64,000 bases of DNA from Candidatus Raymondbacteria bacterium RIFOXYA2_FULL_49_16. GTDB taxonomy: Bacteria; Fibrobacterota; OXYB2-FULL-49-7; XYB2-FULL-49-35. Position numbers and translations under genes: made by a program. Every line of letters starts with the position of its first letter. The first letter of the stretch is position 1. The stretch spans positions 1-64,000 of the forward strand of contig MFYT01000019.1 of assembly GCA_001789205.1 (NCBI GenBank). The letters are read 5' to 3'. This document shows positions 53,268-56,869 of the stretch, piece by piece. The notes under the pieces were generated by a model. The model made no database searches, had not been told where the DNA came from, and saw only the letters and a list, made by a program, of their open reading frames with translations.

Positions 53268-54332
53268 ATGCCTGCCTCCACCCGGATCCTCGCCATTTGC
53301 CCTGTGGGAATTGGTAATTTCCTGTTACTTACCCCTGCATTGCAGCACCTCAAGGCGTGTCTGCCCCAGTCGCGCATCACCCTTTTATCTCTCAAGGCCG
53401 GAATCTCACAGATTGCCGGACGATACGCGTTTGTCGATGATATTGTCACGCTTACTGTTGCCAAAAGCAGGTCACCGGTCTATGTCCTGGGTTTCCTGAA
53501 GAAGCTTTTCAGGGCATATGATATCTCCCTGGCATTTTTCCCGGCGAACAGGGCTGAATACAATCTGGTGCCCTGGCTGGCACGCATTAAAAAACGCATT
53601 GGGTTTCGCTATGCGATAAAGGCAACTAAATCATTGGCCTTTTTAAATACAGATCTTGTGGTTCCGGATGAGAAGAAGCACGATGTACTTCAGAATTTCA
53701 GGCTCTTTTCCTGTCTGGGGTTGTCTGAGCCGGAAACCGTATCGCTTGTTCCTGTTCCCCTGACGCCCACTGAGGAGACATTTGGCATTACTTATGTTCG
53801 TTCGTGCGTTCCCAGCGGCAGTACACTCATTGGCATGCATCCGGGATCGAGCAGCGAACACGATATGGAGAAGAAACGGTGGCCGGTGGAGAGATTCGCC
53901 GCGCTCGCGGGTTTGATTTCAAAAGACCGGAACTCATTATATCTCATATTTGGCGGGCCCGAAGAGGAGGGGCTAAAACAAAGGCTGGCTGCGTTGATTG
54001 GAAAGAACGCACACGTTGTCACGAGCCAATCGCTTTTTGAAACAGCGGCTGTGATTAAACAGTGCACGGCCTTTATCAGCAACGATTCGGGCCTCATGCA
54101 CATTGCAGCCTCATATGGGGTAAAGACCGCGGGTATTTTCGGACCAACCGATGATACCCGTACCGCGCCATTTGGGCCGAATCATCTGGTCATCAGGGGA
54201 AGGTATGATTGTTCCCCATGCTGGACCATTGCGAATGCGGGCAAACGGGAGCAGTGCAGGTTCGGCGATTTCCGGTGTCTTCAGCGCCTGTCAGCGGAAG
54301 AAGTGTTCATGAAGATCGGGCAGTGGCTTTAG
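53268..54332 (+). CDS. Family 9 glycosyltransferase (heptosyltransferase-like)
   Basis: The 354-residue GT-B protein has the GT9 pattern: ILAICPVGIGNFLLLTPAL at the start, the donor-side IGMHPGSSSEHDMEKKRWPVERFA and a C-terminal FISNDSGLMHIAASYGVKTAGIFGPTD, the conserved nucleotide-sugar loop. It would add heptose or a similar sugar to the LPS core. It follows the GtrB-like gene by 5 bp, and its 3' end overlaps the opposite-strand NAD kinase gene by 26 bp. Confidence 0.92.
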   Translation: MPASTRILAICPVGIGNFLLLTPALQHLKACLPQSRITLLSLKAGISQIAGRYAFVDDIVTLTVAKSRSPVYVLGFLKKLFRAYDISLAFFPANRAEYNLVPWLARIKKRIGFRYAIKATKSLAFLNTDLVVPDEKKHDVLQNFRLFSCLGLSEPETVSLVPVPLTPTEETFGITYVRSCVPSGSTLIGMHPGSSSEHDMEKKRWPVERFAALAGLISKDRNSLYLIFGGPEEEGLKQRLAALIGKNAHVVTSQSLFETAAVIKQCTAFISNDSGLMHIAASYGVKTAGIFGPTDDTRTAPFGPNHLVIRGRYDCSPCWTIANAGKREQCRFGDFRCLQRLSAEEVFMKIGQWL

Positions 54333-55200
54333 GATTGGGCGCTTTTCCCCACAGGAGTTTTTCACGCAAGACTTGGAAATACGTCACATTCTTTGGCGCG
54401 AGCAGCGTGGTATCGTGACGTGAACGGGTAATCCGCACCTCATCGCCGCAGCGCAGCGGCAGTCTCTTTTTTCCATCGATATTCAGATGCATGGCTGTTT
54501 TCTCGTCGTGCATCTTCACGGTCACCGGTTTCACGATCGAACAGACAATAGGTTTTTGCGTAAGGGAATGGGAGCAGATGGGCGTGATTATGACACTGTT
54601 GAGGCTTGGATAGACAATGGGGCCGCCCGAGGCCATGGAGTAGGCCGTGCTGCCCGTGGGTGTTGCTACGATAAGGCCGTCACTGTTGTAGAATGACACC
54701 AGCTCTCTGCCGTAAAATACGGAAAGATTCAGGAGCTTGCCCAAGCCTTTGATCACCACGTCGTTGAGACAGATATCGCGGGCAGCCACGCGGCCTGAAC
54801 GGACCAGTGACACGTCGAACATTATCCGCTTCTCGCTCCGGTAACGCCCTTTCAGAATGTCCGAGAGCTGCTCCACGGCGCTGGCAGCGGCGATATCGGT
54901 CAAAAACCCGAGCCGTCCCATATTGATGCCGATGAGCGGTATCCGCGAGGTTGCCACAAGCCGGGCTGCGGAGAGAAAGGTGCCGTCTCCTCCCACGGAA
55001 ACAAGCACGTCTATTTTTTTCAGGAATTCTTTTACTTCGGCGGTTTTTACCCGGGGGCCTGCAGGCAGGCTGAATATGCCCCGGTTGAAATAAAACGTAT
55101 GGCTGTTGAAGGCGCTGTATGAGACAATCTCAGCAATAAGCTTTCGTACCTCTTTTGACCGTTCAAAGGCAATGATGCCGATGTTCGAGAGCTTCTTCAT
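54307..55200 (-). CDS. nadK: NAD kinase
   Basis: The 297-residue protein has the signatures of NadK: VSVGGDGTFLSAARLV, IGINMGRLGFL and the TPTGSTAYSMASGGPIV nucleotide loop. It phosphorylates NAD to NADP. It is the last gene of the lepA operon; its start overlaps the EPSP-synthase-like gene by 4 bp and its end runs 26 bp into the opposite-strand glycosyltransferase gene. Confidence 0.95.
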   Translation of the reverse strand: MKKLSNIGIIAFERSKEVRKLIAEIVSYSAFNSHTFYFNRGIFSLPAGPRVKTAEVKEFLKKIDVLVSVGGDGTFLSAARLVATSRIPLIGINMGRLGFLTDIAAASAVEQLSDILKGRYRSEKRIMFDVSLVRSGRVAARDICLNDVVIKGLGKLLNLSVFYGRELVSFYNSDGLIVATPTGSTAYSMASGGPIVYPSLNSVIITPICSHSLTQKPIVCSIVKPVTVKMHDEKTAMHLNIDGKKRLPLRCGDEVRITRSRHDTTLLAPKNVTYFQVLREKLLWGKAPNPKATARSS

Positions 55201-56591
55201 TCCACGTTCCTGACAAGGTTTTCAAACTGAAAGTAAAAATCGGGCCAGTATTGGTCAACGGCCTCGGCATTGACAAGCGTGCTCTCGCCCTGGTTTTTGA
55301 TCGCCGCGACGGAAAAGGCCATGGCAATGGCAGGGTGGCCGCAGGCGTCGAATTCCGCGCCGTCGTATTCGCGCGCGCCTTCGATGACTATGCCATCTTC
55401 GATTTCACCGGTTTTGACGCCCATGGTCCTGAGGTTTTTCAGGGTCCCAGTAAAGAGATCCATGGGCCCCTGCCGCAGGAAATCAGCGTCGCGGATAATG
55501 GTTTGTCCCGTGGCATAGGCCGCGGCCACGCATACGAAGGGGAAGAGTTCGCCTATGCCTGCCATGAGTTCTCCGGAAAAGCGGCGGCCCGCCAAGGGCG
55601 CTGAACTTACCTGGCAATCAAAGCGATCGCTGTCTTTGTGCTTTTCAGTTTGCAGCCGGCCGCCCATGCGCCGCAGAACGTGGATGAAAGGCGCGCAACC
55701 GCTGCTAATACCTTTTACCGTGACCGTGCTATGACCGCACAGCGTAGCGGCAAGGAGAAATGGGGCAGCGCACACTGCTCCGCCCGTAAGGGTAAAATGG
55801 GCGGCAGTGAGTACAGGCTGTTCGCGCACGGTGATGATGCGCATGGACTTTTCGTCTGATTCCGCGGCCTTTTGTTTCTGAATGCGCCTGATGCGGCGTT
55901 CAAGTTCGTTGCCGTGGTCCTGCTCGTGCTCCTGTTCGGACTCTTCGTATGAGGCGCCCTGTTTTTGCACGGTGATTATTGCGCCGAATTTCTGCGCGAT
56001 CGCTTCAGTCTCTCCGGGAAGGGGTGTGGTTTCAATAATCCGGTTTTGGCCGGACGCGGCGGCCATGGCGGCAAAGAGGCAGATGGTTTTCATTGTTTCA
56101 TCGGGATGGTCGATCGCGCATTCCAGCGATTCGGGAGAGGAAGGGATGATTTCCAGTTGAAATGCGTTGTCCTGTTCCTTGAACTCAAAGGAAAATCCCG
56201 ATGCCGACAGTTTTTTCAGGGCGTTGCGGAAGCGGCCGGTAATGGATGACGCGTTTCCCGAGATGCGCACGCCTTTCCGAAAAAAGAGGGGTGCAATCAG
56301 CTCGAGCGTTTCAGCGGAGGGGATGTTCTCGATCGCGGCCGGCAAAGAAGGGTCGCTGAAGCCGCCGGACCCCTGGACAATACAGGAACCGCCCTGGCGC
56401 GTGATGGCGCCGAACGAACGTTGGACAAAGGAAAAAAGCTCCTCAGCGGCCCCGCATTTGGGCGTGTTTTCAATGGTTGTTTCTCCCTTGGCAAAGAGGG
56501 AGAGCAGAGTGGCCTTCAAGAGCGCGGAGACCGACGCGGGCGGCTGGATCTCTCCGGATATGCCTTTTGCCTGATGGAAGGTGCGGTTCAC
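55197..56591 (-). CDS. EPSP synthase homologue lacking catalytic residues
   Basis: The 464-residue protein has the overall EPSP-synthase/MurA fold and ends with recognisable late motifs (GQTIIRDADFLRQGPMDLF, GVKTGEIEDGIVIEG, HPAIAMAFSVAA), but the residues that bind substrates seem replaced. The PGSKS...R motif is PASVSALLKA (catalytic Lys is Val, Arg is Lys); the GNAGTAxR region is PSAETLELIAPL; the VKETDR motif is RQGPMD; the AKTFPD motif is VDQYWPD. It also has a highly charged insertion around residues 213-247, rich in Glu, Gln, Arg and Lys. It lies between chorismate mutase and nadK, overlapping each by 4 bp. Whether it is inactive is inference; a working AroA may be elsewhere. Confidence 0.85.
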   Translation of the reverse strand: MNRTFHQAKGISGEIQPPASVSALLKATLLSLFAKGETTIENTPKCGAAEELFSFVQRSFGAITRQGGSCIVQGSGGFSDPSLPAAIENIPSAETLELIAPLFFRKGVRISGNASSITGRFRNALKKLSASGFSFEFKEQDNAFQLEIIPSSPESLECAIDHPDETMKTICLFAAMAAASGQNRIIETTPLPGETEAIAQKFGAIITVQKQGASYEESEQEHEQDHGNELERRIRRIQKQKAAESDEKSMRIITVREQPVLTAAHFTLTGGAVCAAPFLLAATLCGHSTVTVKGISSGCAPFIHVLRRMGGRLQTEKHKDSDRFDCQVSSAPLAGRRFSGELMAGIGELFPFVCVAAAYATGQTIIRDADFLRQGPMDLFTGTLKNLRTMGVKTGEIEDGIVIEGAREYDGAEFDACGHPAIAMAFSVAAIKNQGESTLVNAEAVDQYWPDFYFQFENLVRNVE

Positions 56592-56869
56592 GCTACGGTC
56601 CTTTTCTCGAGCCGTTTGGTCTCGGCGATGATGACTGAAAAAACGCGGTTCACCGCGGCGCTGTCGAGCGGTCCCTTGTTGAGCGCGCGCATTGCCGTGA
56701 GTATGGCTTTCTCCCGTTTTTCATCTGATACGGCAAGACCGGTCTTCTTTTTTATTGCGCCGATGCGGCGGGCAATGCGTACGCGCGCGTTCAGCTGGGC
56801 AAGCAGGACCCGGTTAATGGCGTTGATTTTTCCACGCCATTTTTCGATTGAGTGTTGTGCGGTGCTCAT
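56588..56869 (-). CDS. AroQ-type chorismate mutase
   Basis: The 93-residue protein from ATG 56869 is an all-helical chorismate mutase: KWRGKINAINRVLLAQLNARVRI, IGAIKKKTGLAVSDEKREKAIL and VNRVFSVIIAETKRLEKR, with Arg and Lys at positions expected for the active site. It converts chorismate to prephenate. The frame is open further upstream, but that part lies in the spacer after signal peptidase and is not protein-like. It starts 30 bp after the signal peptidase homologue and its stop overlaps the EPSP-synthase-like gene. Confidence 0.88.
   Translation of the reverse strand: MSTAQHSIEKWRGKINAINRVLLAQLNARVRIARRIGAIKKKTGLAVSDEKREKAILTAMRALNKGPLDSAAVNRVFSVIIAETKRLEKRTVA

Follow-up and report, generated by a model that had tools for sequence, protein, structure and literature searches.

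A gene of Candidatus Raymondbacteria bacterium RIFOXYA2_FULL_49_16, located in a 64,000-nucleotide stretch of DNA (the window), encodes a member of the EPSP synthase (AroA) family that appears to have lost its active site. Since its catalytic residues are missing, yet the gene is conserved beside a working-looking EPSP synthase, it probably has a non-catalytic job, and we incline to regard the protein as a pseudoenzyme kept as a scaffold or an allosteric subunit. The family is given the name AroX here.

An AroA homologue between chorismate mutase and nadK

The AroX gene of the window (55197..56591, minus strand) has a GTG start and encodes 464 residues, annotated here as a non-catalytic class II AroA (EPSP synthase) homologue. 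It lies downstream of a gene for an AroQ-type chorismate mutase (CM; 56588..56869 from its ATG, minus strand; PF01817, 8.5e-20) and upstream of nadK, encoding NAD kinase (54307..55200, minus strand), in the order lepA-lepB-CM-AroX-nadK. The open reading frame coordinates confirm the 4-bp overlaps with both CM and nadK that the initial annotation had described. In the profile comparison with AroA and MurA that the same annotation had proposed, AroX matched the Pfam family EPSP_synthase (PF00275) over most of its length (E=1.1e-32) and missed both equivalog cut-offs, scoring 117 bits on TIGR01356 (aroA; curated cut-off, 287) and 26.6 bits on the MurA profile (cut-off, 392.7).

The window genome (G000; 5.43 Mb, estimated to be 100% complete) holds three genes of the family, i.e., the window AroX, a murA (contig C70; L006), and a canonical aroA (contig C12). 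MurA belongs to the same enolpyruvyl transferase superfamily as AroX, with weak similarity. The second, normal aroA that had been suggested as a check is thus present, separate and intact: its product keeps 16 of the 19 active-site positions, including K22, R27, R124, D313, KE..R, and H385-R386, and reaches 410 bits on TIGR01356.

Loss of the active site

Aligned to E. coli AroA, the window AroX retains a single active-site position out of 19, namely, S23. The substitutions are K22 to V, R27 to K, N94 to P, R124 to G, S169-Q171 to DET, D313 to E, K340 to G, E341 to P, R344 to L, H385 to P, R386 to A, and K411 to Q. On the minus strand, PGSKSxxxR is replaced by PPASVSALLK (residues 17 to 26; 56514..56543), (R)VKETDR by RQGPMDL (residues 373 to 379; 55455..55475), GDHR by GHPA (residues 418 to 421; 55329..55340), and the K411/KTFPDF motif by VDQYWPDF (residues 445 to 452; 55236..55259). 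The loss of the catalytic Lys and Arg and the changes in four motifs (PGSKS, GNAGTAxR, VKETDR, and AKTFPD) reported in the initial annotation are therefore confirmed, and further changes affect the SSQ, D313, and GDHR positions. This alignment supports the view that the window AroX is a homologue of AroA and probably not an EPSP synthase. Across the Fibrobacterota, AroX proteins have 0 to 4 of the 19 positions left, versus 15 to 19 in the canonical AroA copies, all states being read from one MAFFT alignment in which the N-terminal positions are uncertain for the most divergent AroX.

The two-domain EPSP synthase (EPT) fold is nevertheless predicted to be kept and to be nearest to class II. The AlphaFold2 model of the window AroX (pLDDT, 79; pTM, 0.80; residues 88 to 146 unreliable) found AroA as its best PDB matches with Foldseek (TM, 0.70; E, 1.8e-30). 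The model of AroX from Fibrobacter intestinalis (pLDDT, 91; pTM, 0.89) matched the class II CP4 EPSP synthase best, with a TM of 0.83, and E. coli AroA with a TM of 0.70.

A charged insertion at the domain hinge

A charged insertion (approximately residues 211 to 250; 55842..55961, minus strand) lies at the hinge between the N- and C-terminal domains. From residue 196 to residue 262, the window AroX has 67 residues compared to 26 to 33 in insertion-free AroA, i.e., about 35 to 40 extra residues, in line with the highly charged segment of about 35 residues noted previously. Within it, the AlphaFold2 model predicts a helix (residues 229 to 244, ELERRIRRIQKQK; 55860..55907, minus strand) containing R233, which is invariant in 49 family members. 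Conservation in AroX falls mostly on Gly, Ala, Leu, Met, and Pro, plus a few charged residues (R233, D271, R336, R367, and D399). The conserved positions are largely structural and common to intact class II AroA; the exception is the RR pair of the insertion, which is without a counterpart in ordinary AroA. Catalytically intact relatives in the Zixiibacteriota and Latescibacterota carry an insertion at the same site. In three Latescibacterota proteins (L199 to L201), an intact active site coexists with an RR-type motif, e.g., EELDRRLRR, and the Zixiibacteriota insertion is often of another form, DPxDPRKK. Since intact relatives already have the insertion, it does not accompany the degeneration.

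Distribution and selection in the Fibrobacterota

With a 24-member alignment as the query, 157 of 168 Fibrobacterota genomes gave AroX matches (about 1e-46 or better), the remaining 11 giving no match or a weak score typical of canonical AroA. AroX is present in 85 of the 89 good genomes (completeness of 90% or more and contamination of 5% or less); these classes were read from the E-value table, and a tally at E 0.001 (88/89) includes canonical AroA matches. The four good genomes without AroX (G003, G005, G015, and G056) all belong to family f4. The gene is present in cultivated F. intestinalis (ATCC 43854), and the only other genome of the window organism's order (G001) carries an orthologue that is 45% identical, with more distant ones elsewhere. 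The orthologues share with the window AroX both the active-site loss and the location of the insertion, a recurrence across the phylum that is not due to chance. Of 41 relatives, 40 have a canonical aroA that exceeds the TIGR01356 cut-off.

The median dN/dS of AroX was 0.076 (0.070 for the N-terminal part and 0.073 for the C-terminal part), close to that of tyrA (0.075) and nadK (0.057). These Nei-Gojobori values come from 155 locus pairs with dS between 0.15 and 1.2, which are not independent, and the upper tail is inflated by a few pairs with L039, whose start is wrong. They indicate that AroX is under strong purifying selection, like tyrA and nadK. The copies read have open reading frames. 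A pseudogene or an assembly artefact was ruled out by the orthologues and by the purifying selection. In the g34 genomes, including G066 (L157:4362-5453), AroX is shortened to about 365 residues, part of the N-terminal domain being lost and the RR insertion kept.

Operon context

The usual order in Fibrobacterota is CM-tyrA-AroX-nadK. Among 76 loci, whose neighboring genes were identified with small HMMs built for the analysis, nadK follows AroX in 74 and is its most constant neighbor, tyrA comes before AroX in 73, and CM lies ahead of tyrA in 63; AroX and nadK most often overlap by 4 bp, as in the window. Loci of the Chitinispirillia type read trpB-trpA-CM-tyrA-AroX-nadK-recN, with a CM of the yeast/plant type (TIGR01802), whereas Fibrobacter and the window genome have a small AroQ CM instead. 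Yeast/plant-type CM genes (TIGR01802; PDB match to yeast CM, 1e-31) were located in these operons at L332:1975-2739, L326:3208-4104, and L329:3582-4343.

In the window, the operon is without tyrA, and both nadK and CM adjoin AroX. AroX without a PF02153 match also occurs in G033, G059, and G051 to G053, and CM still adjoins AroX where tyrA has been lost (the window, G001, G051 to G053, and G059). The converse is seen in family f4, which has tyrA without AroX, tyrA adjoining nadK in L322 and L323. AroX without TyrA and TyrA without AroX indicate that AroX is more than a subunit of TyrA and weaken that as its sole role. Long open frames suggesting TyrA-AroX fusions proved to overrun the neighboring tyrA in another frame and are not fusions. 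As a separate observation, prephenate dehydrogenase (PF02153) was matched only at E 6e-4 in the window genome and not at all in G001, leaving both without a convincing candidate despite the presence of CM.

Origin from class II AroA and relatives in other phyla

In a mixture-model tree of 64 proteins, class I AroA is set apart by a 100/100 branch and AroX falls outside it, with class II, although the branches are long and the exact position of AroX is unsure. Derivation from AroA, as proposed initially, is borne out by this tree together with the PF00275 match and the fold comparison, and AroX appears from sequence comparison to be a degenerate class II AroA. All tested canonical AroA proteins of the Fibrobacterota are of class I and occupy two separate places: the window type groups with Treponema and a Latescibacterota copy (100/100), and that of Fibrobacter groups with E. 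coli and Sulfurovum (100/99). Since the canonical genes are of class I and come from at least two sources, xenologous displacement is likely, and foreign class I aroA genes would have displaced the resident gene at least twice. Fibrobacterota AroX form two groups in both the FastTree and the mixture-model trees; a single clade is not rejected (p-AU 0.21), and the common synteny favors orthology.

AroX-type matches were also found in the Zixiibacteriota (L115) and Latescibacterota (L040). A Treponema candidate (L114) was ruled out, as it is a canonical AroA. In many Zixiibacteriota, AroA is intact, bears an insertion at the site seen in AroX, and is not accompanied by a second aroA. Elsewhere among the Latescibacterota, a canonical aroA coexists with a degenerate copy linked to tyrA, which in some cases consists of the C-terminal domain alone (219 to 247 residues). 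Such C-terminal halves of class II AroA lie at L040:4932-5615, L221:1465-2124, and L222:1477-2220, those of L221 and L222 adjoining tyrA and that of L040 being part of a cluster with CM, DAHP synthase, tyrA, aroE, and argS.

In pathway-bearing Zixiibacteriota, the setting is argS-(aroF)-aroA-aroE-aroK. Among 30 Zixiibacteriota genomes without a second aroA above the cut-off (MAGs whose quality is not on record), aroB is absent in 28, and aroC is not matched in full in any of the 30, G251 having a fragment at a contig end. All 30 keep the AroA/AroX gene, which follows argS in the loci read. Two of these genomes, G250 and G260, are each essentially on one contig, which argues against missing sequence. 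Some of the pathway-less proteins are only partly altered, with 3 to 13 of the 19 active-site positions kept, and in the pathway-less pair G285/G286 the dN/dS of AroX is 0.077, equal to that of the neighboring argS. Across L170 to L174, L177, L178, L181, and L278 to L297, the gene almost always comes after argS, often followed by genes for a MATE transporter, a UPF0102 protein, or Gate-domain proteins.

Possible functions of AroX

The best reading of these data is a non-catalytic scaffold or regulator whose role would depend neither on EPSP synthesis nor on TyrA. The ancestor may have been a class II AroA with an arginine-rich hinge insertion, encoded in an aromatic gene cluster. Judging from the tree, class I aroA genes gained elsewhere in the genome would have relieved it of EPSP synthesis, after which the old protein, as its sequence and model show, kept the two-domain fold and lost the site for PEP and shikimate-3-phosphate. 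Its retention would most likely be due to binding of partner proteins through the C-terminal domain and the RR helix. From the operon, candidate partners in the Fibrobacterota would be the co-transcribed CM, TyrA where present, and NAD kinase.

Operon position by itself is no proof of interaction. The operon favors a protein that scaffolds or regulates the branch leading from chorismate and/or NAD kinase. The Zixiibacteriota data favor a pathway-independent function, as a role confined to the aromatic pathway would leave unexplained why AroA/AroX is kept without aroB and aroC. The two readings can be reconciled by assuming a second, older role of AroX. The suggestion in the initial annotation of a regulatory or scaffold protein of the aromatic pathway thus stands in part: active-site loss, the intact aroA, and selection make such a role likelier than an enzymatic one, whereas a partnership with CM and a role confined to aromatic metabolism are conjectural: CM usually shares the operon, but the CM family varies by clade, and the Zixiibacteriota gene is kept by argS without aroB and aroC.

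The second function may also predate the loss of catalysis. That a role outside the shikimate pathway already existed in the catalytic ancestor and was only unmasked by this loss is a serious possibility, to which we give somewhat less than an even chance. The pathway-less Zixiibacteriota argue for it through retention of the gene after argS, its selection at the level of argS, and the essentially single-contig genomes, as does the RR insertion of still-intact relatives. However, the Zixiibacteriota insertion is often of the DPxDPRKK form, the neighbors vary by phylum (argS or nadK), and AroX has been lost in family f4. Extended to the FCB group, this would mean a class II AroA with an ancient second, non-catalytic function, possibly exerted via the RR hinge insertion; this function, rather than aromatic synthesis, would have maintained the protein once foreign aroA genes had taken over EPSP synthesis (Fibrobacterota and Latescibacterota) or the shikimate pathway had disappeared (Zixiibacteriota), a scenario that we consider plausible but tentative.

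The kept fold and the strong purifying selection would also fit an enzyme that has acquired a different substrate or reaction. We consider this unlikely, as the ligands of PEP and phosphate have been lost and the AroX conservation profile shows neither a substitute cluster of invariant polar residues nor a new conserved catalytic set. Partial (g34) or complete (Latescibacterota; L221) loss of the N-terminal domain could suggest a decaying relic, kept only for translational coupling in the operon, but this is very improbable in view of the dN/dS of Fibrobacter AroX (about 0.08 in each domain), the presence of AroX in nearly all good genomes, and the open reading frames of the copies read. That AroX still makes EPSP with displaced residues is scarcely credible, the extensive Pfam match notwithstanding, when one site residue is left and the genome also has an intact aroA of class I.

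Relation to known systems and significance

By tree and structure comparison, AroX is nearest to the class II AroA proteins (CP4, Bacillus halodurans, Coxiella, and Streptococcus pneumoniae), sharing their fold, domain order, and glycine motifs (MGxxxGExxDGxxxxG); it differs in the lost active-site residues and the charged insertion at the domain hinge. A literature search for an inactive EPSP synthase family or for EPSP synthase in Fibrobacter yielded no direct report. The TyrA-AroF fusion of Pseudomonas syringae is the nearest parallel in print: AroF (EPSP synthase) lost about 200 residues along with the gain of a foreign aroF, and the authors considered that the remnant might become a new regulatory domain (PMC1173090). 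There, a TyrA-linked EPSP synthase lost catalysis together with the gain of a foreign copy, as is likely for AroX, but the AroF remnant is fused, recently truncated, and confined to one lineage, whereas AroX is separate, usually full length, phylum-wide, and under selection. The activation of MtCM by DAHP synthase is a case of inter-enzyme allostery in the aromatic pathway (PMC7762937). The MtCM-MtDS complex resembles the role proposed for AroX in that a pathway enzyme is controlled by a non-covalent pathway partner, but that partner is an active DAHP synthase, whereas AroX would be a dead AroA.

Databases likely label many AroX proteins as EPSP synthase by Pfam similarity, and the dead copy may consequently be counted when pathways are reconstructed or glyphosate classes predicted for Fibrobacter and its relatives. 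The family provides a natural series from enzyme to pseudoenzyme, from intact AroA with the insertion through partly altered and dead forms to domain-truncated ones. AroX points to a second role of a textbook enzyme, and its presence in cultivated F. intestinalis makes this testable.
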